Source of the DNA: Armatimonadota bacterium | GTDB lineage: Bacteria; Sysuimicrobiota; Sysuimicrobiia; Sysuimicrobiales; Sysuimicrobiaceae | Direction: 5' to 3' | DNA length: 48,482 bases | Assembly: GCA_031460175.1 (NCBI GenBank) | Contig: JAVKGW010000011.1 | Span: 1 to 48,482, forward strand | In this document: piece by piece, positions 1-11,946 of the stretch | Position numbering within the stretch: the first letter of the stretch is position 1 | Layout of the letters: each line of letters starts with the position of its first letter | Notes under the pieces: generated by a model | What the model was told of the DNA's origin: nothing | The model's input: the letters and a program-made list of their open reading frames with translations, nothing else | Database searches by the model: none | Position numbers and translations under genes: made by a program

Positions 1-124
1 GATATCCCGCCTGGGCGAGCAGCTCCTTCGCCCGCGCAGGGTTATACGAGGGTCCTGGGTAGTCCTGAAGGGCTGCAGGACTGAACGGGTGCGCAATCTG
101 ATTCCACGGGCGCCAGTTCCCGCG
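1..124. repeat. Exact 124-bp repeat (first copy, at the window edge)
   Basis: Bases 1-124 are identical to 7137-7260; the first mismatch is at 125 against 7261. Both copies lie inside the paralogous binding-protein genes. Identity falls sharply after about position 168, so this looks like a recent gene-conversion or recombination tract, or a repeat at which the assembly broke. The repeat may continue to the left of the window. Confidence 0.95.
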
Positions 125-1054
125 GCCGAGCGCCCGGGCGATGGCATCCCGATCCACCGCGTACGCGAGTGCCTCCCGAACCCGGCGATCGGCAAACGGC
201 GAATCCGAGTTCACACTGTCCGGGATGATCATGAGGATCCCCGCACCCGGAGGCCCCGTGATGAGCCGGAACCTCCCGGTATCCCGGAGCTCCGCGATGA
301 TGGCGGGATCCCCGAAGCCCGCGATGTCCAGCTGATGGGCCAACAGGGCCGCCTTCCGGGTTTGCTCATCCTGGATGAACCGCATCTCCAGGCGATCCAA
401 ATAGGGCTTTCCGCGATCCCAGTACTGGGCAAACCGCACGTAGTCCGCGTACGAGCTCGGATCGTACCGCACGATCCGGAAGGGCCCCGTGCCCACCGGC
501 TGCCACTGGGCCCGCTCCTGTCCCAGCCGCTGGATGGTGGCAGGAGAAGCGATGAGGGCCGCGGATCCTCCCAGAGCAAGGAACACCCCGTTGTCCCACT
601 TCTCCAGGTTCACCCGCACCGTGTACCGGTCCAGCACGTCCACGGACTTGATGTAGGCCGGCAGCCGCCGGACCTTGATGCTCTCCTCCAGGCTGAACTT
701 CACCGCCTCCCCGGTCAGCTCCGTGCCGTCGTGGAACTTGACCCCCCGGCGAAGCCGCAGGACGATGGCCTTCCGGTCCGGGGCCACCTCCCACCGCTCC
801 GCGAGTCTGGGGGAGACCCGCCCGTACGCATCGACCCACACCAGGGTCTCGTACACGGGCATGGCGGCGATGATGCCGAACACGGGCATGATCCACGGGA
901 CCCCGAAGGGGCCTCCGGGAGGTTCGTCCGCCACCCGCAGGACCCCTCCCCGTTGGGGCTGCTCCGCAGGACCCGCCAGGCCTACCCCGATCCCTCGGGC
1001 GGCCAAGACAACCGCCAGGATCACGCCCAAAGCCAGTCCTCCCATCCTCCGCAT
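1..1054 (-). CDS. Peptide/solute ABC transporter substrate-binding protein, copy A (partial, C-terminus off the left edge)
   Basis: This is the N-terminal 351 residues of a family 5 (DppA/OppA-like) extracellular solute-binding protein. It starts at ATG 1052-1054 behind a GGGAGGTGA ribosome-binding site. The product begins with a hydrophobic signal-like stretch (MRRMGGLALGVILAVVLAA) followed by the GGVLRVADEPPGGPFGVPW region. It is a close paralogue of the complete protein at 6655-8181, which predicts about 508 residues, so roughly 155 residues are missing beyond the window. Its reading frame was followed by hand because it has no stop inside the window. It lies 36 bases downstream of the UGSC partner gene, in the same orientation, and is probably the last visible gene of the operon that starts at 10850. 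It would bind a substrate outside the membrane, but no matching dipeptide permease genes are present nearby. Confidence 0.88.
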   Translation of the reverse strand, partial: MRRMGGLALGVILAVVLAARGIGVGLAGPAEQPQRGGVLRVADEPPGGPFGVPWIMPVFGIIAAMPVYETLVWVDAYGRVSPRLAERWEVAPDRKAIVLRLRRGVKFHDGTELTGEAVKFSLEESIKVRRLPAYIKSVDVLDRYTVRVNLEKWDNGVFLALGGSAALIASPATIQRLGQERAQWQPVGTGPFRIVRYDPSSYADYVRFAQYWDRGKPYLDRLEMRFIQDEQTRKAALLAHQLDIAGFGDPAIIAELRDTGRFRLITGPPGAGILMIIPDSVNSDSPFADRRVREALAYAVDRDAIARALGRGNWRPWNQIAHPFSPAALQDYPGPSYNPARAKELLAQAGY

Positions 1055-1090: not shown

Positions 1091-2137
1091 TCACATGCGC
1101 CTCGCGGGGATTCGGCGGGTAACGGTCTGCCAGACGAAGGTGGGACAGACGGTGGATACTCCCGCGTTCCGCGCTCCCGCCACGATCAACGTAATCGCCT
1201 CCGGGGCATGCGCGAACCGCACGAACGCCTCGTCCGGAAGGTCTGGATCCAGCCCCCCTGCCTTCGCAAGGCGCCGCAACTCCCCCGCCCGACGCCCGAA
1301 GTGCTCCCACAGGAACGCCCGCACTCGATGCTTGCTCCACCCCGCCTCCGCGATGAGCTGCGCGTGCTCCGGCCCCATCACCACGATGGACCCGTGGCCT
1401 CGGGGGGAGGGGAAATATCCTCCTCCGTATGACATGGAGTCCGCGATGTTGAGGAGGATGTGTTCCGGCTGCTTGGAGTCCCGCTGTTCCACGGGCATGG
1501 TCCCCCTCGCCCAGGCCACGGTCACCGTGCTCTCGTCCTCCCGAAATCCCCGCTCCACGTGCAACGGTTCCCAGGGGCTCTCCTCCTCGTTCTCCGCGAT
1601 GCAGAAGCTGTACTTGGCCGGGGTCCCCTGGGTGCTCTGATCGAAGGTGTGGGGCCGGATCCCGAAGGCGTTCATGACCACCAGCCGCAGGGCCCGGCCC
1701 ACGGTGGCGTTCGCCCGGTCTCCGGGACTGAACACGTTGTCCGTGCCGTTAAAGCCCAGCTCCTGGCGCACGGGACCGTTGATCACCACCAGCACCGCCT
1801 GGCCGGTGGTGCTCTGGAACAACCCGCGGCTCACCGGCAGGTCCCGAACAGCCTCCAGCATGGCCAGGACCACGGGGAAGTGCTCCGGCCGACACCCCGC
1901 CATGACCGCGTTCGCGGCCGCAAGGCGCACGGTGCACTTCCGCCCCAGGTGCTCCTGCGCGAAGATCACCTCCTCTGGGTCCCGGTCCACCTGCGCGAGG
2001 AACTCCTCCACGAACTCCTCCGCGGGAGGCACCACCGGCAACCCGTCCGTCCACCCCTGCTCGTAACAGTACTCGATGGCCGCCCGGGCCTCCCGCACCG
2101 CCTCCCGGGTCGGTTCCGTCCGCACTCCTTGACTCAT
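1091..2137 (-). CDS. UGSC-associated partner protein (stand-alone form), function unknown
   Basis: A 348-residue soluble protein of unknown function. It is homologous from about residue 20 to its end to the C-terminal domain of the fused selenoprotein at 8201-9808. Conserved blocks shared by the two copies include EQGWTDGLPVVPP, VRLAAANAVMAGCRPEHFPV, GDRANATVGRA, STQGTPAKYSFCIAENEEES and GWSKHRVR. Five cysteines are conserved (C24, C68, C82, the Cys of SFCIAENEE and the Cys near STVCPTF), which would fit redox or metal chemistry but proves nothing. The start ATG overlaps the stop of the selenoprotein gene as ATGA, so the two are translationally coupled. Fusion of the same two parts in the second copy strongly suggests a physical complex. 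No signal peptide or membrane segment is visible. It was probably annotated elsewhere only as hypothetical or UGSC-linked. Confidence 0.85.
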   Translation of the reverse strand: MSQGVRTEPTREAVREARAAIEYCYEQGWTDGLPVVPPAEEFVEEFLAQVDRDPEEVIFAQEHLGRKCTVRLAAANAVMAGCRPEHFPVVLAMLEAVRDLPVSRGLFQSTTGQAVLVVINGPVRQELGFNGTDNVFSPGDRANATVGRALRLVVMNAFGIRPHTFDQSTQGTPAKYSFCIAENEEESPWEPLHVERGFREDESTVTVAWARGTMPVEQRDSKQPEHILLNIADSMSYGGGYFPSPRGHGSIVVMGPEHAQLIAEAGWSKHRVRAFLWEHFGRRAGELRRLAKAGGLDPDLPDEAFVRFAHAPEAITLIVAGARNAGVSTVCPTFVWQTVTRRIPARRM

Positions 2138-2670
2138 CCTGCCACCTCCTCCTGCAGCAGCCGCACCACTTCCGGAAGGGCCTGCTCCGCCCGGACTCTC
2201 AACTCCTCCGGGGAGAGACTGCTGATGGGGTGCGGAATGGCCACATACGGATACCCTTCCAATCCCTGGGTCCGAGCCATGGCGTCCGCGGTGCGGCGGA
2301 AGGCATCCGTGATCACCGCGGCAGCCGGAATCCCCCGTTCCTCGAACAGGATGCCGTCGGCCACACTGGCCGCGCTGCAGGACCCTCAGTCCCCGACCCC
2401 GGGGATCACGAAATCACACTGCGTCCCGAGCTCCTCCACCAGTTCCGGAGGAACGGGGACCGCGAAGTGCGGCTTGCGCCGCAGCACCACCTCCCGCACC
2501 CCGTACCTCTCCCGGAGGAGATCCCCCAGGGCCCTGAGGAAGACATCCGCGTTCCGCTTGCCGTTGTCCACGAGCCCCACCCGGGCCCCCCGCAGGGACC
2601 GACCGCCCCTTGGGGCCATGCGCCGCCTGATCTCCTGCACCCCTCCTGTGGGATCCACCAGCACCGCCAT
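2134..2670 (-). CDS. UGSC family selenoprotein (in-frame TGA decoded as selenocysteine)
   Basis: A 178-residue protein read through an in-frame TGA at 2386-2388 (codon 95). The start ATG is at 2668-2670 behind GGAGGTGAGGGG. Before the TGA comes a conserved N-terminal half (RGARVGLVDNGKRNAD, then GVGD); after it the frame continues GSCSAASVADGILFEERGIP and AIPHPISSL to the stop. The motif is therefore U95-G-S-C98, the hallmark of the family listed in databases as UGSC family (seleno)protein. The paralogue at 8201-9808 has the TGA at the same codon, with homologous protein on both sides, so a nonsense mutation is unlikely. A SECIS-like hairpin follows directly. A U-x-x-C pair suggests thiol/selenol redox chemistry; the reaction is unknown. 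It starts 5 bases after the ABC ATPase gene and overlaps the partner gene by 4. SelA/B/C/D must be encoded elsewhere. Confidence 0.9.
2349..2388 (-). promoter_or_regulatory. Predicted bacterial SECIS element of UGSC selenoprotein A
   Basis: The mRNA from the UGA (2388-2386) folds by eye into an outer GGGU/AUCC stem and an apical stem CGCGGCC/GGCCG(A)CG with one bulged A, closing the five-base loop AGUGU (2367-2363). A G lies at loop position 2, 20 nt after the UGA, which fits the usual spacing for SelB-dependent bacterial SECIS elements. The apical hairpin is the same in the second selenoprotein gene. No folding program was run. Confidence 0.72.
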
Positions 2671-2675
2671 TCCCC

Positions 2676-3809
2676 TCACCTCCCTCCGTTGGAATGATGT
2701 GCGATGGCCTCCGAGGGAGACTGCCGGAGAAGGAGGATCCGCCGCGGGTCCAGCCGGAGGTAGACCGCCTCCCCGATCCGCCAAACCGGCGGACCGTAGG
2801 CCATCAGGGTCCCCCTTCCCTCGGCCAGGGCGATCCGGTACCGCATCACCGTCCCCTCGAACAGGGCGGAGAGGACCCTCCCTCCCACCACGTTCACGTC
2901 CCCCGTGGGTTCCGGCTCCATCACCACGTGCTCGGGCCGGATTCCCACCCACACCCGCTCGCCCCGCGGCACATCGCCTTCCTCCAACCGCACCTGCAGC
3001 CGCCCCCAGTCCGTCTCCACCACGGCCACTTGCCCGTTCATCGCCACCAGGCGCCCGGTGAACAGGTTCGTGGTCCCCACGAACTCCGCCACGAACCGGG
3101 TCCGGGGCCGCTCGTACAGTTGCTGGGGGGTCCCGACTTCCTCCACCCGTCCCTCCCGCATTACCGCCACCACGTCTGACAGGGACAGCGCCTCCACCTG
3201 GTCGTGCGTCACGTAGACCGTGGTAATGCCCAGCTTCCGCTGCAATCCCCGCAGTTCCTCCCGAACCTGCTCCCGCACCTTCGCATCCAGGTTGCTGAGG
3301 GGCTCATCCAGGAGCAGAACCTGAGGCTCGTACACCAGGGCCCGGGCCAGGGCCACCCGCTGCTGTTGGCCTCCGCTCAGCAACGGCGCGGGCCGGTCCC
3401 CCAACCCTCCCAGTCCCACCAGCTCCAGCGCCGCCTCCACCCGCCTCCGGATCTCCCCGGGGGGCAGGCGCCGCACCCTCAAGGGATACGCCACGTTCTC
3501 GAACACCGTCAGGTGCGGCCAGATGGCATAGGACTGGAAGACCATCCCGATGTTCCGGCGCTCCGGAGGGAGATAGATCCCCTGCGCCCGGCTGAAAACC
3601 ACCTGCTCCCCGAACCGGATCTCCCCGTCATCGGGCCGCTCCAACCCGGCGATGCACCGCAGCACCGTGGTCTTCCCGCACCCGCTGGGGCCCAGCAGGG
3701 TCAGGATCTTCCCCTCCGGGGCCTCCAGGGTCACCCCGTCCACGGCCCGGACCCGCTGGCCCTGGAAGGTGAACACCTTCCGGAGGGAGATCAACCGGAT
3801 GGAGGCCAC
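2676..3809 (-). CDS. ABC transporter ATP-binding protein (iron(III)/spermidine type, FbpC/PotA-like)
   Basis: A 377-residue ATPase that would power the permease encoded immediately upstream. Visible motifs are Walker A GPSGCGKT (40-47), Q-loop Q92, signature LSGGQ (144-148), Walker B LLLDEP (165-170) and H-loop H202, followed by a C-terminal TOBE-type regulatory domain (about 235-365, including VGIRPEHV). The start is GTG at 3807-3809 with AGGTGAT upstream. Length and C-terminal domain match the FbpC/PotA class rather than peptide transporters. It is the third gene of the binding protein-permease-ATPase set and lies 5 bases before the UGSC selenoprotein gene. The 42-base gap to the permease gene contains a weak TATGCT-like -10 sequence, not convincing as a separate promoter. 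Confidence 0.93.
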   Translation of the reverse strand: MASIRLISLRKVFTFQGQRVRAVDGVTLEAPEGKILTLLGPSGCGKTTVLRCIAGLERPDDGEIRFGEQVVFSRAQGIYLPPERRNIGMVFQSYAIWPHLTVFENVAYPLRVRRLPPGEIRRRVEAALELVGLGGLGDRPAPLLSGGQQQRVALARALVYEPQVLLLDEPLSNLDAKVREQVREELRGLQRKLGITTVYVTHDQVEALSLSDVVAVMREGRVEEVGTPQQLYERPRTRFVAEFVGTTNLFTGRLVAMNGQVAVVETDWGRLQVRLEEGDVPRGERVWVGIRPEHVVMEPEPTGDVNVVGGRVLSALFEGTVMRYRIALAEGRGTLMAYGPPVWRIGEAVYLRLDPRRILLLRQSPSEAIAHHSNGGR

Positions 3810-3851: not shown

Positions 3852-5570
3852 CTAGAGCGCGGCGGCCGGCCCGCGCATCCACCGGCGTGCCGCGGCGACC
3901 ACGACCACACACAGGGCGCTCACGAGCACGCCCAGGGCCGCCATGTCCCCGACCTGCCCGTCCTCCCACAGGTGGAACAGCAGGGGACCCACGGGCTCCG
4001 AGCGGGGAGTATACAGGAGGACGGAGGTGCTGAACTCCTGGATGTAGATGGTAAAGAGGATGGCCCAACCCGCGAGGAACCCGGGCCGAACGAGCGGCAG
4101 GAGGACCTTCCGGAACGTGCTCCCAAACCCCGCCCCGCAAACCCTCGAGGATTCCTCCAGCTCCCGGTGCACCTGCACCATGGTGGAGGTCATGGCCCTC
4201 AGGCCGTAGGGCAGAAACCGCGTGACGTAGCTGATGAGGAGGATCCATAGGGTCCCGTAGATGGGCAGGGGGAGCTGCGCGTAGGCCCAAAGCAGCCCCA
4301 CCGCGAGGGCCGTCCCGGGAAAGGCCCAGGGCACGAAGGATAGCCCCTCCAGGATCCCGCTGAACCGAGTCCTCCGATGAACGGTGAAGTACGCCACCAG
4401 GGAGGCGAGGAGCATGGCCACGGTGGCCCCGCCCAGTGCCAGGGTGAGGCTCACCTGGAGGGCCCGCCCCACCCGACCACTCTGGAGAAGGAACTCGTAG
4501 TGCCGGAGCGTGAGCTGGCTCAGCATCTCCCGGCTCGGCACCTGGTAGTAGGGCGTCAAGGAGACGTACACGAGCACCGCCAGGGGGACGATCACGAGCA
4601 GCCCGAGGATCCCCAGCGCCACCCCGGAGGCCAGATACCGCCACCGACCCAGGTTGATCACCCGGGGTCGGTATCCCCGTCCCGTGATGGTGGCGTAGCG
4701 CTCCGAAAGTGCGGTCAGCCTCCGGTAGATCCCCACCAGGGTGAGGGTGATGGCCAGCTGGCCCACCGCATACGTGGCCGCGAGGTTGTGGTTGGGAGGG
4801 AGGGTCGCCAGGGCCTCCCGGAAGATCCTCGTGCTCAGGACCTCGATCCCCACGGGCATCCCCAGGACCACGGGGATATCGAGGCTCTCGATGGCCCGGG
4901 CGAAGTTCAGGGTGGCCGTGCCGATGACCGCGGGCGCCATGACGGGGATGGTCACCCGCCGGGTCACATCCAGCACGCCGGACCCCGCCATCCGTCCGGC
5001 CTCCTCCAGGGCCGGGTCCATGGCCCGCAGGGCCGCGGAGAGGATGAGGAAGGCGAGGGGCGTGAGCACCAACCCCTCCACGAACATCATCCCGCCCAGG
5101 GAGTACCCGTTCAGGACGGGAAGTCCGAGAGGCTGCAACACCCCTCGATTGAGCAGCCCGATGCGGGGGCTCAGCACCAGGCTCCACGAGGTGGCCACGA
5201 GGAACCGGGGGATCACGTTGGGCGCCAGACCGATGAGCTCAAACAGGCCCCTGCCCGGTGCATCGGTGCGTACCGTAATCCACGCGAGGACCGTCGCCAG
5301 AAGCATGGAAAATGCGGTGGCCCCCGCGGCGAAGAGCAGGGAGTTCACCAGGATCCGGTAGGTCCTCGGATCCGTGTAGGCCTCCCGATAGTGCGCGGTG
5401 GTCCAGCGCCCGGGGAGTCCCAGGGGCGCATCGCTGACGCTCCCGTAAAAGAGCATCACCGTGGGGTACAGGGCGAGGAAGCCCACGAGAAGGCCTGTGG
5501 CCACCGCCACCCACGTGCCCGTCTCCACCGAGAGCCAGGGGCGCGGGCCTGCCAGTACCCGCCCGTTCAT
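3852..5570 (-). CDS. ABC transporter permease, two fused permease domains (FbpB-like)
   Basis: A 572-residue integral membrane protein made of two binding-protein-dependent permease domains in tandem, as in ferric iron FbpB/SfuB-type transporters. Each half carries an EAA-like cytoplasmic loop: LEEAGRMAGSG with the following IPVMAP in the first half, and LEESSRVCGAGFGS with VLLPLVRP in the second. About twelve hydrophobic segments alternate with short loops. The start ATG is at 5568-5570 with only a weak ribosome-binding site. It sits between the binding-protein gene (36-base gap) and the ATPase gene (42-base gap). The substrate cannot be read from sequence: proteins of this class carry iron(III), but related ones carry phosphonates, thiamine or organic anions. 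The neighbours make a catabolic substrate a fair alternative to iron. Confidence 0.92.
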   Translation of the reverse strand: MNGRVLAGPRPWLSVETGTWVAVATGLLVGFLALYPTVMLFYGSVSDAPLGLPGRWTTAHYREAYTDPRTYRILVNSLLFAAGATAFSMLLATVLAWITVRTDAPGRGLFELIGLAPNVIPRFLVATSWSLVLSPRIGLLNRGVLQPLGLPVLNGYSLGGMMFVEGLVLTPLAFLILSAALRAMDPALEEAGRMAGSGVLDVTRRVTIPVMAPAVIGTATLNFARAIESLDIPVVLGMPVGIEVLSTRIFREALATLPPNHNLAATYAVGQLAITLTLVGIYRRLTALSERYATITGRGYRPRVINLGRWRYLASGVALGILGLLVIVPLAVLVYVSLTPYYQVPSREMLSQLTLRHYEFLLQSGRVGRALQVSLTLALGGATVAMLLASLVAYFTVHRRTRFSGILEGLSFVPWAFPGTALAVGLLWAYAQLPLPIYGTLWILLISYVTRFLPYGLRAMTSTMVQVHRELEESSRVCGAGFGSTFRKVLLPLVRPGFLAGWAILFTIYIQEFSTSVLLYTPRSEPVGPLLFHLWEDGQVGDMAALGVLVSALCVVVVAAARRWMRGPAAAL

Positions 5571-5606: not shown

Positions 5607-6617
5607 CTATCGCCGCGCAAACACCCTCTCCAGCTCGCGCCGCCACTCCTGCAGCCTTTCGGCTCCCAGGGGCTGCGCCACCTGGAATCGGATCTGCTCC
5701 AAGCCTGGGATGGGCGACTTCACCCCCCGCACCAGGACCACCTCCCCTTCCTGCGCGAGGGCCAAAAGGGTGGCCCGGGAGTGGAGGGTCTCCATGAGGA
5801 GCCGCGCCGCGTTGGGGTGCGGAGGCCGAGCGCTCACCGCGAAGTGGGCACCCACGGCCATCATGGGATTGATCCGCGCGTAATCGATGGGGGCTCCCTG
5901 CGCCCGGAAGAGGGGAACGTAGTGCAGGAGCGTGATCCCGATGGGGTATTCCCCGCTGATCACCTTTGGGGGGACCAGGGGATCCTGCCCCACGAAGGCC
6001 GGGTTCTGTTCCGCGAAGCCCCGGAGGAACCGGTCATAATCCCTTCCCAACACGTTGCGGAGCCAGTGCAACCAGAGGGCGATGGTTACGTTCCGCTGGG
6101 GATCCGCCATCACGATCTTCCCCCGCCACTTCGGGTCGATGAGATCCAGGTACGACCGGGGGACCTCCGCCGCGGGGACCAGCCGCGGGTTGTAGATCAC
6201 CGCGTCCGCGATCACCCGGTAGGGGGGAGGGAGGGTGGGATCCCGCCACGTTACCGTGAGTCCCTCGATGGGAGGCCACGGACCCCGACCGATGGCTCCC
6301 GCGTCCCGGAGCACCTGCATGGTCTCCGTGGTGCCCTCCGCCACGTCAAAGAGCCACCGGCCCACCCGGGTCTCCGTGAGTGCCCGGTCCAGGATCCCGC
6401 TCGCGGAGCTCCTCCACTCCTCCACCGGCACCCCGTATCGTCCCTCATAGATCTTCTTCACCACGTTGAAGATGGGCTCCCGCATGGCCACGTACACGAC
6501 CACCTTTCCCTCCCGCCGGGCCGCCTGCACCACATCCGGCTGCGCCATCAGCACAGGCGCCCCTGCCAGGCCGAGGAGGGTCAGGACCATCCCCGCCACA
6601 TGCCATCGGTACCTCAT
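5607..6617 (-). CDS. ABC transporter substrate-binding protein, iron(III)/spermidine type (FbpA-like)
   Basis: A secreted periplasmic-type binding protein of family 1/FbpA class, 336 residues. A signal sequence is visible (RYRWHVAGMVLTLLGLAGA with an A-x-A-like site near PVLMAQ). The body starts ARREGKVVVYVAM, typical of the family. ATG 6615-6617 is preferred because GGAGGAGACC lies directly upstream; an ATG at 6641 would add eight residues without a ribosome-binding site. The paired tyrosines that bind Fe(III) in FbpA are not obvious, so the ligand may not be iron. It stands between the family 5 binding protein (37-base gap) and its permease, within a single-direction gene string. Confidence 0.85.
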   Translation of the reverse strand: MRYRWHVAGMVLTLLGLAGAPVLMAQPDVVQAARREGKVVVYVAMREPIFNVVKKIYEGRYGVPVEEWRSSASGILDRALTETRVGRWLFDVAEGTTETMQVLRDAGAIGRGPWPPIEGLTVTWRDPTLPPPYRVIADAVIYNPRLVPAAEVPRSYLDLIDPKWRGKIVMADPQRNVTIALWLHWLRNVLGRDYDRFLRGFAEQNPAFVGQDPLVPPKVISGEYPIGITLLHYVPLFRAQGAPIDYARINPMMAVGAHFAVSARPPHPNAARLLMETLHSRATLLALAQEGEVVLVRGVKSPIPGLEQIRFQVAQPLGAERLQEWRRELERVFARR

Positions 6618-6654
6618 GGTCTCCTCCTGCGTGTTCTGCAAACCTTACTTATGC

Positions 6655-8181
6655 TTATGGCCGTGCTTTCCATGCGTTCGCGGGCTCCCACCAAGGCCAG
6701 GTAGATTTGGTGAGGTGGGCCGTTCCCCGCACCTCGGGCCATGCCACGTAGGTCCGCATGGCCATGAACACCGGAATGACCGTGTAATCCTGCATCAGCA
6801 GCCGATGAACTTGTTGGAGCTTGTGCCGCTGGGGCGTAAGGGTCGCCGCAGACTCCTCCACCAGCCGTTCCAGCCCCTCCGGACGCTTCAGGCTGACAAA
6901 CCCTTCCGGGGAGTTCGTGAAGTAGAACCGGATGTAGTTGTTGAAGTTCGGGAAGTAGCCGTAGAAGTGAAGGAGGACGCCCCGCCATCCGTTCCGCTGG
7001 TACTCCACGTACCGCCCGATCTCCGGCGTCTCCAGCTCCGCCCGGATCCCGACTTCCTGGAGATACCGCTGGACCGCCAGGGCAATGTCCCGCTCCAGGT
7101 AGAAGGCCTTGATGACCCGGGTGCTGAACCCATTGGGATATCCCGCCTGGGCGAGCAGCTCCTTCGCCCGCGCAGGGTTATACGAGGGTCCTGGGTAGTC
7201 CTGAAGGGCTGCAGGACTGAACGGGTGCGCAATCTGATTCCACGGGCGCCAGTTCCCGCGACCGAGCGCCCGGGCGATGGCATCCCGGTCCACCGCGTAC
7301 GCGACCGCTTCCCGAACCCTCCGGTCCGCGAAGGGAGAATCGGAATTCGCACTGTCCGGAATGATCATCAGGATCCCTGCTCCCGGAGGCCCGGTGATGA
7401 GCTGGAACCTCCCTGTATCCCGAAGCTCTGCGATGATGGCAGGGTCTCCGAACCCGGCGATGTCCAGTTGGCGCGCCAGGAGAGCAGCTTTGCGCGTCTG
7501 CTCGTCCCGGATGAACCGCAGCTCGAGGCGGTCCAGGTAGGGCTTCCCGCGATCCCAGTATTGATTAAACCGGACATAATCCGCGTACGCGTTCGGGTCA
7601 TATCGCACGATCCGGAACGGCCCCGTGCCCACCGGCTGCCACTGGGCCCGCTCCTGCCCCAATCGCTGGACGGTGGCAGGGGAAGTAATGAGAACCGCGC
7701 TCAGCGAGATGTAGATCCCGTTGTCCCACTTCTCCAGGTTCACCCGCACCGTGTACCGGTCCAGCACGTCCGCGGACTTGATGTAGGCAGGCACCCGCCG
7801 GGCCTGGATGTACCCTTCCAAGCTGAACTTCACCGCCTCCGCCGTCATCTCCGTGCCGTCGTGGAAGAGGACTCCCCGCCGCAGCCGGAGGATGAGGGCT
7901 TTCCTGTCCGGAGCCACCTCCCATCGCTCCGCGAGCCTCGGCAGGACCCGGTTATACGCGTCCACCCACACCGGGGCCTCGTAGACGGGCATGGCGGCGA
8001 TGATGCCGAACACGGGCATGATCCACGGCACCCCGAAGGGGCCTCCCGCGGGTTCGTCCGCCACCCGAAGCACCCCTCCCCGCTGGGGCCGCTCCGCAGG
8101 ACCCGCCAGACCCACCACTCCCTGGATGGACAGGACCACCGCCAGGGCCACGCCAACGGCCAACGCGACCATCTTCCGCAT
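6655..8181 (-). CDS. Peptide/solute ABC transporter substrate-binding protein, copy B
   Basis: A complete 508-residue family 5 (DppA/OppA-like) extracellular binding protein. The start ATG at 8179-8181 follows GGGGTGAG. A signal peptide is visible (KMVALAVGVALAVVLSIQG), then GGVLRVADEP, FHDGTEMTAEAVKFSLE (a family hallmark), QYWDRGKPYLDRLELRFI and the YNPARAKELLAQAGYPNG region. It is a close paralogue of the partial gene at 1-1054 and a more distant one of the gene at 44988-46505. The three share the unusual VADEP/VVDEP...PFGVPW N-terminal block, so they form a local subfamily. It begins 19 bases after the stop of the fused selenoprotein gene. No dedicated family 5 permeases are near, so it may act with a remote permease, or act as a stand-alone solute scavenger. 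Confidence 0.93.
   Translation of the reverse strand: MRKMVALAVGVALAVVLSIQGVVGLAGPAERPQRGGVLRVADEPAGGPFGVPWIMPVFGIIAAMPVYEAPVWVDAYNRVLPRLAERWEVAPDRKALILRLRRGVLFHDGTEMTAEAVKFSLEGYIQARRVPAYIKSADVLDRYTVRVNLEKWDNGIYISLSAVLITSPATVQRLGQERAQWQPVGTGPFRIVRYDPNAYADYVRFNQYWDRGKPYLDRLELRFIRDEQTRKAALLARQLDIAGFGDPAIIAELRDTGRFQLITGPPGAGILMIIPDSANSDSPFADRRVREAVAYAVDRDAIARALGRGNWRPWNQIAHPFSPAALQDYPGPSYNPARAKELLAQAGYPNGFSTRVIKAFYLERDIALAVQRYLQEVGIRAELETPEIGRYVEYQRNGWRGVLLHFYGYFPNFNNYIRFYFTNSPEGFVSLKRPEGLERLVEESAATLTPQRHKLQQVHRLLMQDYTVIPVFMAMRTYVAWPEVRGTAHLTKSTWPWWEPANAWKARP
7137..7260. repeat. Exact 124-bp repeat (second copy)
   Basis: Identical to window bases 1-124, and located at the equivalent place in the paralogous binding-protein gene. 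Adjacent stretches of the two genes are clearly more diverged, so the identity is local rather than the general level of the duplication. Confidence 0.95.
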
Positions 8182-8200
8182 GGCTCTCACCCCCTGCGGG

Positions 8201-9808
8201 TTATTCGTGCACCCTTGCCTCCGGAACGCCCCGCGTCGCCGTCTGCCAGGCGAAGGTGGGACACACGGTAGACACTCCCGCGTTCCTCGCCCCCGCGATG
8301 ACCAAGGTAATGGCTTCCGGGCCCGGCGCGAACCGCACGAACGCCTCGTCCGGAAGGTCCGGATCCAGCCCCCCTGCCTTCGCAAGGCGCCGCAACTCCC
8401 CCGCCCGACGCCCGAAGTGCTCCCACAGAAACTCCCGCACCCGATGCTTGCTCCACCCCGCCTCCGCGATGAGCTGCGCGTGCTCCGGCCCCATCACCAC
8501 GATGGACCCGTGCCCGAACCGCCAGGGGAAGTAGGCACCTGCGTAGGACATGGAGTCCGCAATGCTGAGGAGGATGTGCTCCGGCCGCTTGGAGTCCCGC
8601 TGCTCCACGTGTAGGGTGCTCTGGGCCAGGGCCACGGTCACTGTGCTTTCCTCCCGGGCAAATCCTCGCTCCACGTGCAACGGCTCCCAGGGGCTCTCCT
8701 CCTCGTTCTCCGCGATGCAGAAGCTGTACTTGGCCGGGGTCCCCTGGGTGCTCAGGTCGTACACGTGCGGCCGGATCCCCAAGGCGTTTTGGATCACCAG
8801 CCGGATCGCCCGGCCCACGGTGGCGTTCGCCCGGTCCCCGGGGCCCAGGACGTTGTCCTTGCAGTTGAACGCCAGCCGGTTCCGGATCGGGCCGTTCACG
8901 ATCAGCAAGACCGCCTGGCCATGCTGGGGCATGAGCACCGCTCGGTTTTCGACAAGGGCCTGCAGGGCTTCCAAGGCCGCCAGGACCACGGGGAAGTGCT
9001 CCGGCCGACACCCCGCCATGACCGCGTTCGCGGCCGCAAGGCGCACGGTGCAGCTCCTGCCTAAGTGCTCCTGGCTCAGGACCACCTCATCTGGATCCCG
9101 TTGTACCTGGGCCAGGAACCTTTGGACGAGCTCCTCCGTGGGAGGTACCACGGGCAATCCGTCCGTCCACCCCTGCTCGTAGCAGAACTCGATCAGGGAA
9201 GGAACCGCATCGCCCCTCGGGAGGAACGCTTCCTCCTCCGGGCGCGCAGGACGCTCCCACCCTCTCCCCACGTCCCGGGCTTCTCCCACGCCCAACACAC
9301 GCAGTACCTCGGGAAGCACCTGTTCTGCCCGGGCCCGAAGCTCCGCGGAGGTGAGGCTACTGAGGGGGTGCGGGATCGCCACATAGGGGTATCCTGGTAC
9401 TCCCAGGTCCCGGGCTCGGGTATCTGCCATCCCGCGGAAGGCCTCCGTGACCACCACCGCGGTCGGGATCCCTTGCTCCTCCAACGCGATCCCGTCGGCC
9501 ACACTGGCCGCGGCACAGGCCCCTCAATCTCCCACGGCATGTACCACGAACGTACACGCCTCGGAGAGCTCCCGGAGCATCTCCCGGGGGGCCGGGAGGG
9601 TGGGGTTGGGTTTCCGGCGGATGAGGACCTCTCCGACTCCGAAGCGCTCCCGGAGCAGCTCCCCCAACGCCTGTACGAACCGATCCGCATTGCGCTTCCC
9701 GCTGTCCACGAGCCCCACCCGGGCTCCCCGGAGCTCGGCCTGACCTCTGGGCGCCAGGGTGCGCGAAATCCGCTCTACCCGCCCGATGGGGGCCACGAGT
9801 CCCGGCAT
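8201..9808 (-). CDS. Fused UGSC selenoprotein plus partner domain (in-frame TGA decoded as selenocysteine)
   Basis: A predicted 535-residue fusion. Start ATG 9806-9808 follows GGGGGAGGG. Residues 1 to about 175 match the small UGSC selenoprotein of 2134-2670: RGARVGLVDSGKRNAD, AVGD, then TGA at 9524-9526 (codon 95), then GACAAASVADGIALEEQGIP and AIPHPLSSL. The motif is U95-G-A-C98, Ser replaced by Ala. After a linker of some 35 residues (about 175-210) comes the partner domain (EQGWTDGLPVVPP through STVCPTF) matching the separate gene at 1091-2137. There is no stop codon or frameshift between the two domains. The identical TGA position and shared SECIS hairpin support selenocysteine. It lies 49 bases after the dioxygenase gene and 19 before binding protein B. 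The reaction is not known; the fusion argues that both domains act in one enzyme. Confidence 0.9.
9492..9526 (-). promoter_or_regulatory. Predicted bacterial SECIS element of the fused UGSC selenoprotein
   Basis: Downstream of UGA 9526-9524 the mRNA has the apical stem CCGCGGCC/GGCCG(A)CGG closing loop AGUGU (9505-9501). The second loop base is G and lies 20 nt after the UGA, exactly as in the first gene. The 20-base core GCGGCCAGUGUGGCCGACGG is identical in both genes although other nearby codons differ. Confidence 0.72.
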
Positions 9809-9857: not shown

Positions 9858-10850
9858 TCAGCGCACCGCCACCTCCACGGGAGGCGTCCCGTAGGTGTGG
9901 AAGGTGGCCACGGTGGGCATCCCCCAAGCCTGTCCTCTCTTGCGCTCCGCCTCGCTCCACACGATGGGCCTCCAGTCCGGAGCCAGGATCAGGCGGGCAC
10001 CCGGACACCCGATCTCCACCCGGTTGCCGCCGGGCTCGTACACGTAGAGGAAGAACGTCTGCTGGACCGCGTGCTTGTAGGGCCCGTACTCGATGAAGAT
10101 CCCGTGCTCCAGGCAGATGTCCGCGGCCCGCAGGACCTCCTCCCGACTGTCCACCGCATAGCACACGTGGTGGAACCGCCCGCGCGCTCCCGTCTGGTCC
10201 TCCGTGATGGCCACCTCATAGCCCTTGTTGTTCGTGGTCACCCACGCGCCCTTCTCCGAGCCGTCGTCGAAGATGATGATCTCCGTGAGCCGGCAGCCCA
10301 GGGCCTCCTGCATCAAGATCCGGGTGGCACGCACGTCCGCGGCGAACAGGTTGATGTGATCCAGCCGTCGGAGATTGGCACCTCGCGCGGGAAATCGGGA
10401 GGCCTGGTTCTTCAACGCGGGCCTCGTCTCCTCCGTGGGCCGGTACCACTCCACCTCGTAGAAGATCTCCCCCAGGTGGCCGTCCGGGGTCCGGAACTGA
10501 TAGGCGGGGCCGTGCCCCCGATCCCCCTCGATCCACCCCACGCCGTAGCCCGACCGCTCCAGAGCCTGGACCCGACGGTTGAGGGCCTCCGGGCTTGCGG
10601 CGCGGAAGGCGAAGTGGCCCATCCCAGGCAGCCTCGCGGCCGTGAGCTTCAGGGTGTGATGGGCATAGTCGTCCCACCCGCGCAGGTACACGGAGTCCCC
10701 GGACTGTTCGGTGATGGTCATCCCCATGACGTCCACGAAGAACCGGAGACTTTCCTCCAGCTTGGGGGTGAGGAGCTCCAGGTGGGCGAGGTGGGCGAGA
10801 TCACAACTCGGGGGGCTCGGGGGAATCGTCGGGCCCATGAGCTCACTCAT
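9858..10850 (-). CDS. VOC-family extradiol ring-cleavage dioxygenase (type I, catechol 2,3-dioxygenase-like)
   Basis: A 330-residue two-domain vicinal-oxygen-chelate protein. The N-terminal domain starts near LAHLELLTPKLEESLRFF and the catalytic C-terminal domain near LDHINLFAADV. The Fe(II) ligands expected for type I extradiol dioxygenases are present: H165 (DHIN), H227/H228 (RFHHVCYAV) and E279 (NRVEIG). The length is typical of catechol or 2,3-dihydroxybiphenyl dioxygenases, so cleavage of a catechol-like ring with O2 is the best guess, though the natural substrate is open. ATG 10848-10850 is chosen over the upstream in-frame start because AAGGAGGTAGCC precedes it. It is the first gene of the minus-strand operon, behind the promoter at 10906-10935, and divergent from the hydrolase/FCD operon. 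Confidence 0.88.
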   Translation of the reverse strand: MSELMGPTIPPSPPSCDLAHLAHLELLTPKLEESLRFFVDVMGMTITEQSGDSVYLRGWDDYAHHTLKLTAARLPGMGHFAFRAASPEALNRRVQALERSGYGVGWIEGDRGHGPAYQFRTPDGHLGEIFYEVEWYRPTEETRPALKNQASRFPARGANLRRLDHINLFAADVRATRILMQEALGCRLTEIIIFDDGSEKGAWVTTNNKGYEVAITEDQTGARGRFHHVCYAVDSREEVLRAADICLEHGIFIEYGPYKHAVQQTFFLYVYEPGGNRVEIGCPGARLILAPDWRPIVWSEAERKRGQAWGMPTVATFHTYGTPPVEVAVR

Positions 10851-10905
10851 GGCTACCTCCTTCGCCACAGGATGCGGAAATCCTCGGCGTGCCTTACGCA
10901 GTTTC

Positions 10906-10935
10906 ACTCTAGGAGGATGCCTACGAATCTGTCAA
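10906..10935 (-). promoter_or_regulatory. Predicted sigma-70 promoter of the dioxygenase/selenoprotein operon
   Basis: Read on the minus strand: -35 TTGACA (10935-10930), 18-base spacer, -10 TAGAGT (10911-10906). The -35 box is a perfect match and overlaps the palindrome at 10931-10948, an arrangement typical of repression. Confidence 0.6.
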
Positions 10936-10948: not shown

Positions 10949-11019
10949 CGGGTCCATCCGTGTCGTGTACCTTTAGTCAAAGAACGCTCCTGCGGTGTGG
11001 GAGCAGAAAAGGGGGACCC

Positions 11020-11946
11020 ATGGGCGAGGAGATCCGGGCGCCCTCGGAGCGGGCGCAGGCGGTGGTTCGCGGCGCGTACGACCTTCACGTGCATACCGGC
11101 CCGGACGCCCTCCCCCGCCGTTGTCACGATATCGAGGCGGCGCGGGGATTTCTCCATCGCGGGCTGGCGGGATTTGCCATCAAGTCCCACTACACCTCCA
11201 CCGCGGCCCGGGCGCGCCTGGTGAACCTCCTGGTGCCCGGCATTCGGGCATTCGGTGCCCTCTGCCTGAACGCCGCCGTGGGCGGCATGAACCCCGTGGC
11301 GGTGGAGATCGCGGCGCGGGAGGGCGCCCGGATCATCTGGATGCCCACGGTGGACGCGGAGAACGAGGCCCGGGCCCTCCGGGAGGGGCGCACATCTGAA
11401 AAGGCTCCCTACTGGGCCCGCCTCCAGGAGGAGCTGCGTCAGAAGGGGGTCTCCTATGATCCCGTGCGGGTGGTGGACGGATCCGGGAGGGTGCGGCCCG
11501 AAACCCGCGAGGTCCTGCGGGCCATCGCGCGGCACGACCTCGTCCTCGCCACGGGACACCTGAGCCGCGACGAGATCTTCGCGGTGGTGGAAGCCGCCAA
11601 GCAGGAGGGCATCCGTCGCTTGGTCATCACCCACCCGGACTTTCCCACGCAGGACCTCCCCATGGAGGACCAGCGCCTCCTGGCCCGGGAAGGAGCCCTG
11701 CTGGAACGGTGCTTTGCGACCGCGCATACAGGGAAAATATCGTGGGCGGAGCTGTGCACCAGGATCCGGGAGGTGGGGGTGGAGCACTCCCTCCTCAGCA
11801 GCGACCTCGGACAACCCACCGCTCCCCCGCCCGAGGACGGCCTCGCCTTGATGGCAGACCGGCTCCTGGAAGCCGGATTTTCTGAGGAAGAGATCCGCAT
11901 CATGGCGGTGCGCAATCCACAGCGGCTCGTGGACGGTGAGTCCTAA
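11020..11946 (+). CDS. DUF6282-like metal-dependent hydrolase (amidohydrolase/PHP-like)
   Basis: A 308-residue cytosolic protein with an N-terminal DLHVHTGPD metal-binding motif and later metal-ligand-type histidines (KSHYTS, ATGHLS, THPDFP), typical of TIM-barrel metal hydrolases. The overall pattern resembles proteins grouped as DUF6282. The start ATG 11020-11022 follows GGGGG; a GTG at 10960 would add 20 residues but would lie over the promoter region. It heads the plus-strand operon and ends two bases before the regulator gene. Such enzymes often hydrolyse a C-N, C-O or C-C bond of a pathway intermediate; here a lactone or ring-cleavage product is possible but not shown. It is not recognisably LigI (pyrone dicarboxylate lactonase). 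Confidence 0.78.
   Translation: MGEEIRAPSERAQAVVRGAYDLHVHTGPDALPRRCHDIEAARGFLHRGLAGFAIKSHYTSTAARARLVNLLVPGIRAFGALCLNAAVGGMNPVAVEIAAREGARIIWMPTVDAENEARALREGRTSEKAPYWARLQEELRQKGVSYDPVRVVDGSGRVRPETREVLRAIARHDLVLATGHLSRDEIFAVVEAAKQEGIRRLVITHPDFPTQDLPMEDQRLLAREGALLERCFATAHTGKISWAELCTRIREVGVEHSLLSSDLGQPTAPPPEDGLALMADRLLEAGFSEEEIRIMAVRNPQRLVDGES

Follow-up and report, generated by a model that had tools for sequence, protein, structure and literature searches.

A UGSC family gene with an in-frame TGA in an Armatimonadota bacterium, its conserved partner gene and a remote likeness to selenoprotein B

Among the closest described systems are the glycine and D-proline reductases, and the known Grd and Prd systems are anaerobic. 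For PrdB, the selenocysteine (Sec) is proposed to attack a carbon of the substrate, a Cys of PrdB to resolve the selenoether, and the resulting selenide-sulfide to be reduced (PMC3091704). PrdB/GrdB re-reduction is ascribed to thioredoxin/PrdC, and the reductants of glycine reductase are NADPH, thioredoxin reductase and thioredoxin (PMC3091704).

The UGSC family has been on record since at least 2008, when a metagenome paper gave it a 'likely Trx-like fold' (PMC2398784). Its role is not established according to a 2026 review (PMC13188914), as an earlier note on this DNA had also said, and text searches of the open-licence literature returned no functional paper on the 'UGSC family'. We analysed a UGSC gene in a window of 48,482 nucleotides, i.e., the whole stretch of DNA presented here, and compared it with its homologues and with selenoprotein B (GrdB/F/H, PrdB).

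The UGSC gene and its in-frame TGA

The gene and its paralogue have the following features in the window:

2134..2670, minus strand: UGSC family gene of 178 aa, almost certainly a selenoprotein, Sec at codon 95 (ORF and Pfam/NCBIfam matches)
2386..2388, minus strand: in-frame TGA, almost certainly read as Sec, U95 of U-G-S-C (ORF; Cys codons here in 88 homologous genes)
2358..2372, minus strand: hairpin of the bacterial SECIS type at nt 16-30 counted from the T of UGA, with a stem of 5 bp and its AGUGU loop at 2363-2367 (folding and covariation)
8201..9808, minus strand: paralogue with motif U-G-A-C, its UGSC domain continuing in frame into a fused partner domain (ORF, NCBIfam)
9524..9526, minus strand: TGA at codon 95 of the paralogue, in frame and taken as its Sec codon (ORF, family alignment)
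9496..9510, minus strand: corresponding SECIS hairpin in the paralogue, which shares both stem and loop with the one above (folding and covariation)

The earlier note had placed an in-frame TGA at codon 95 of 2134-2670 within one continuous protein. Both statements hold, on the minus strand, which the note did not give: the frame opens at an ATG at 2670, preceded by a strong Shine-Dalgarno sequence (GGAGGGAGGTGAGGGGA-ATG), meets its single internal TGA at 2388-2386 (codon 95) and ends at a TGA at 2136-2134 (codon 179). Each half belongs to the UGSC family, as had been expected, and a single model of each database spans the TGA: Pfam UGSC (PF24696) covers residues 4 to 173 (E 3.5e-61; 206.8 bits against a cut-off of 25), and NCBIfam NF041046, 'UGSC family (seleno)protein', also runs across it (E 1.8e-49; 167.5 against a cut-off of 125). 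The protein carries the [U/C]-G-S-C motif, in the local sequence UGSCSAA. Hence, it is a member of the known UGSC family and nothing different in kind, since that family has long been on record. The paralogue announced about 7 kb away was also recovered, at 9808-8204 on the minus strand; it is conserved on both sides of its TGA, which again lies at codon 95.

The machinery for Sec insertion, which the earlier note had proposed to look for, is complete in the source genome (2.49 Mb, 98.9% complete). A tRNA-Sec (82.1 bits; called Sec by ARAGORN, anticodon tca) adjoins selB and selA in one cluster on contig C3, and selD lies elsewhere, on contig C1. This selD (C1:341633-342556) itself has an in-frame TGA. 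There are five UGSC genes in the source genome and six in a genome of the same genus, and every one of them has exactly one TGA. A sequencing error is excluded by its presence in all 11 copies of two genomes, which contradicts the sense codon or indel that had been named as the possible objection. Among 108 homologous genes, the majority of which were retrieved through a Cys pattern, 88 have Cys at this position, 19 have Sec and one has a different motif. Downstream of the TGA, purifying selection continues, with a pN/pS of 0.07 against the same-genus orthologue and of 0.28-0.39 against the paralogues.

We then come to the hairpin that follows the UGA, whose existence was another point raised beforehand. 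Counting the T of the TGA as 0, nucleotides 16-20 pair with 26-30 and enclose a loop, 21-25, which reads AGUGU. All five stem pairs and the unchanged loop are found in 14 of 17 distinct TGA genes, which come from the source phylum, an actinobacterium, Acidovorax and Paracoccus. Three positions of the stem show paired substitutions (G-C to U-A once, C-G to G-C twice), giving a covariation score of 0.565 against 0.158 for shuffles, none of 500 shuffles scoring as high; sliding one strand by one to three columns abolishes the covariation. The Ser codon lying in the loop is AGT in 14/14 hairpin genes and in 0/88 Cys genes, while AGT makes up 7.5% of the Ser codons in eight genes of the window. The Cys homologues lack the AGUGU hairpin, and the three remaining TGA genes, all of the fused type, carry a different one, CACCAA-GUAC-UUGGUG. 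Plain hairpin energies after the UGA do not separate Sec from Cys genes (means of -15.4 and -16.8 kcal/mol, P 0.13), and, given the higher GC content of the Cys genes, are uninformative; the two groups are told apart only when stem and loop are tested position by position.

One could also read the TGA as a nonsense mutation or a sequencing error, or the two halves as separate proteins, since a standard six-frame listing divides the UGSC gene. The earlier note had indeed warned of such a division by gene callers, and the listing does split it; the C-terminal fragment that it named, beginning MADGILFEERG, would however start at a GTG, codon 103 (2364), which has no Shine-Dalgarno sequence. Against an error or a split stand the TGA at the same codon in 11 genes of two genomes and in other phyla, the selection on the downstream half and the covarying SECIS, and we give such readings practically no weight. 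The Sec machinery, the TGA in all five UGSC genes, the SECIS hairpin and the selection past the TGA together lead us to regard the gene, on sequence evidence, as almost certainly encoding a genuine selenoprotein in which TGA 2386-2388 is read as Sec.

On the plasmid pFER4 of Paracoccus ferrooxidans, a TGA-containing UGSC gene lies between selA and selB and is annotated as two hypothetical proteins. This arrangement is a plasmid-borne selenocysteine kit with its client gene.

The partner gene and the genomic neighbourhood

The UGSC gene lies among transport genes and next to a partner gene:

2..1054, minus strand: solute-binding protein of ABC family 5, cut off by the edge of the window; codirectional, downstream (Pfam)
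1091..2137, minus strand: partner gene, 348 aa, no Pfam/NCBIfam family, its ATG overlapping the UGSC stop (ATGA) (ORF, profile searches)
2676..3809, minus strand: ABC transporter ATPase (spermidine/2-aminoethylphosphonate-like), immediately upstream of UGSC (Pfam and NCBIfam)
3852..5570, minus strand: ABC transporter permease (Pfam and NCBIfam)
5607..6641, minus strand: extracellular solute-binding protein, SBP_bac_6 (Pfam)
6658..8181, minus strand: ABC solute-binding protein family 5
9858..10907, minus strand: extradiol dioxygenase of the catechol 2,3-dioxygenase type; codirectional, upstream (Pfam and NCBIfam)

The partner matched no family of Pfam or NCBIfam. A partner gene lies within 400 nt of 95 of the 108 UGSC genes, downstream of 89 and upstream of 6, and 60 of these 95 neighbours overlap UGSC by 4 or 1 nt; the other UGSC genes include fused genes and contig ends. 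In the source genome, a partner sequence goes with each of the five UGSC genes, one or two of which are fused to theirs. This strict adjacency and the fusion argue for one complex, and we think it highly likely that UGSC and its partner form one. The 2008 metagenome paper describes a UGSC fusion with an unknown domain, 'Unknown_1' (PMC2398784), which very probably corresponds to the partner domain. Within the window, 1-2595 and 7137-9733 (79.6% DNA identity) make up a tandem duplicate of the UGSC-partner-SBP5 unit around the ABC transporter, and their comparison indicates that this duplicate is old and that UGSC and partner are fused in one copy.

The conserved features of the partner are DGLPV, N-x-x-MAGC82, NGP, N143-A-T and C179-x-x-E182-x-E184-x-x-SPW, with C82 in 42 and C179 in 37 of 43 sequences, and with conserved acidic residues. 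Its predicted fold (pLDDT 90) found no convincing match. The best one, the alpha subunit of class I fumarase, resembles it weakly in overall shape (Foldseek E 2.8e-4, Z 6.3 over 175 residues), no better than common chance levels, and differs in the rest: the TM-score is 0.27, identity is 8-13%, and the partner has no demonstrated Fe-S site.

Each UGSC copy of the source genome lies beside an ABC family 5 binding protein. Among the UGSC loci at large, the transporters nearby are of ABC family 5, sulfonate-type, TRAP and TTT kinds, and the nearby enzymes of small-acid catabolism are alcohol/aldehyde dehydrogenases, SDRs, amidohydrolases, CoA transferases, aconitase X (11 loci) and IlvD-type dehydratases (9 loci). 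No single common pathway emerged from these neighbourhoods; with its own transporter and catabolic enzymes for each copy, the substrates probably differ between UGSC copies. In the window, a gene for a DUF6282 protein (10960-11946) is divergent from the operon, and two haloarchaeal plasmids (L112, L117) likewise have DUF6282 genes close to UGSC.

Of about 104 UGSC loci, 8 have a thioredoxin reductase gene, trxB, nearby, four of them together with trxA; at an assumed density of 0.4 trxB per Mb, about 0.6 such loci would be expected. The eight belong to Roseovarius, Variovorax, Arthrobacter, Nonomuraea, Phytoactinopolyspora, Pimelobacter and Halostagnicola, with a weaker one in Neorhizobium, and thus span actinobacteria, alpha- and betaproteobacteria and a haloarchaeon. 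Neither trxA nor trxB is found near the UGSC copy of the window or at most UGSC loci; TrxB is present in the source genome.

The earlier note had read U-G-S-C as a likely redox pair, and U/C95 and C98 are both invariant in the UGSC family proper (46-member alignment). This putative pair is absent from some distant relatives. In Vibrio europaeus (L121:7218-8903) and Sporomusa termitida (L122:7215-8939), fused UGSC-partner homologues, which match the UGSC family with E of about 3e-6 to 6e-6 and lie beside aconitase X, have M-G-T-S in place of U/C-G-S-C, so that at least some relatives in the wider family work without the pair. In Arthrobacter, a UGSC protein (L114:7989-8801) carries a C-terminal NifU-like domain at residues 197-254, a weak NCBIfam match (E 0.022), and NifU is also among the Pfam matches of the UGSC alignment.

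A redox-neutral chemistry could be drawn from several of these observations. U/C95 would then be the nucleophile or a ligand in a UGSC-partner lyase, hydratase, isomerase or hydrolase acting with no net reduction, and this would suit the fumarase subunit (a class I, Fe-S enzyme) as best, weak, fold match of the partner, its two conserved Cys and its acidic residues, the aconitase X and IlvD-type genes near UGSC, and the two fused homologues devoid of the pair. On the contrary, the invariance of both U/C95 and C98 in the family proper, the rare use of Sec by redox-neutral enzymes, the trxB enrichment and the similarity to selenoprotein B described below speak against it, and we hold such chemistry to be rather unlikely.

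Predicted fold and relation to selenoprotein B

The predicted UGSC model (pLDDT 88) consists of five alternating strand-helix units, with U95 after strand 87-90 and just before helix 96-111. This layout would be flavodoxin/Rossmann-like and not clearly thioredoxin-like, and there is no thioredoxin among the best PDB fold matches of the model, which lends no support to the fold suggested in 2008 but, being a prediction, leaves some room for it. The top match, a chain of the methyl-coenzyme M reductase activation complex (Z 10.6), was set aside: it ties with a designed protein (10.5) and reflects a generic alpha/beta layout. In sequence searches of the PDB, no relative turned up for UGSC, the partner, GRDB or GrdE.

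The model bears on the role suspected in the 2008 metagenome paper, that of a thioredoxin-type protein serving as general thiol oxidoreductase or as antioxidant. The UxxC motif, the fold proposed in that paper and the trxB/trxA genes near some loci would agree with it. The predicted Rossmann-like topology does not, and the obligate partner and the dedicated transporters in catabolic clusters are better suited to a substrate enzyme, which makes this role improbable in our view.

A different relation appears at the level of profiles. When 46 UGSC proteins were scanned against NCBIfam, weak matches were obtained to PrdB in 20 (best E 1.9e-4), to GrdB in 19 (2e-4) and to GrdF in 13 (3.1e-4), the best members reaching about 12-20 bits, below all the curated GrdB/PrdB cut-offs of 65-800; the UGSC protein of the window matched none of the GrdB/PrdB models (PF07355, TIGR04483, TIGR01917). 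The profile-profile comparison of UGSC with GRDB (hhalign) gave P 9.8e-6 (prob 82.5) and placed U95 on the GRDB Sec (U346) and C98 on its next Cys. Among controls, 44 families gave at best 0.02 and reversed GRDB 0.28, and with the U-G-S-C motif masked GRDB still gave P 0.0023. The similarity is remote and limited to the C-terminal half. UGSC would thus be a remote relative of the Sec domain of selenoprotein B, as far as profiles can tell, and not a member of that family. The link is invisible in Pfam because the GRDB model PF07355 ends exactly at the Sec and leaves out the C-terminal Sec domain, apparently since its training sequences halted at the UGA.

GRDB genes occur with GrdE in other genomes of the source phylum, a TrxB-like gene or GrdA standing alongside in single loci, and several of these GRDB proteins read U-G-S-C or U-G-T-C; the source genome itself gave no GRDB match, though GRDB was detected elsewhere in the phylum. 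The partner was considered as a possible GrdE and as a relative of GRDB. The former was ruled out (prob 0.1 against the GrdE family, no PF09338 match), and so was the latter.

Proposed reaction and comparison with glycine and D-proline reductases

We consider it an even chance, or slightly better, that UGSC is the subunit carrying Sec in a reductase of two subunits, which thioredoxin would recharge and whose substrates would be small organic compounds imported by the cell. UGSC and its partner would make up one enzyme acting like selenoprotein B (GrdB/PrdB) of the glycine and D-proline reductases. U95, placed where a helix begins at one end of the parallel beta-sheet, would attack as a selenolate an electrophilic carbon or sulfur of the imported substrate, which the partner would hold. 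C98 would resolve the intermediate, leaving a U95-C98 selenenylsulfide that thioredoxin and thioredoxin reductase (NADPH) would re-reduce. The partner would stand in for the pyruvoyl subunit (GrdE/PrdA), with no sequence kinship to it. By analogy, U95, the invariant C98, the partner and the trx genes would fit the PrdB-type cycle. Counted against this reductase are the lack of trx genes at the window locus and at most loci, the remoteness of the GRDB link, the M-G-T-S relatives, the presence of UGSC in aerobes and a partner that is not GrdE.

The partner gene, the likely reductant and the link to known chemistry turn an 'unknown' family into a testable enzyme hypothesis, and the domain that displays the link is exactly the part missing from the Pfam GRDB model. 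As far as we found in the open-licence literature, the link between UGSC and GrdB/PrdB is new, and so is the finding that the partner is generally present.

In UGSC, Sec and resolving Cys are placed and spaced as in selenoprotein B and are followed, as there, by a helix and an 'E..GIP' strand, likenesses detectable at the profile level. Glycine reductase is fed by thioredoxin (PMC3091704), and likewise trxB/trxA lie near some UGSC loci. Unlike selenoprotein B, UGSC stands alone as a domain of about 180 aa, it lacks the third Cys of UxxCxxC (UGSCSAA against UGSCNRC in GRDB), and its partner is not the pyruvoyl-type GrdE/PrdA (PF09338). We tentatively raise the possibility that UGSC and partner form a selenol/thiol reductase class of their own, which would be the largely aerobic counterpart to the reductases of glycine and D-proline. 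If so, this class would combine a stand-alone, selenoprotein-B-like Sec domain with a new substrate-binding subunit in place of the pyruvoyl protein, and many catabolic pathways for small molecules, across bacteria and haloarchaea, would have recruited it together with differing transporters.
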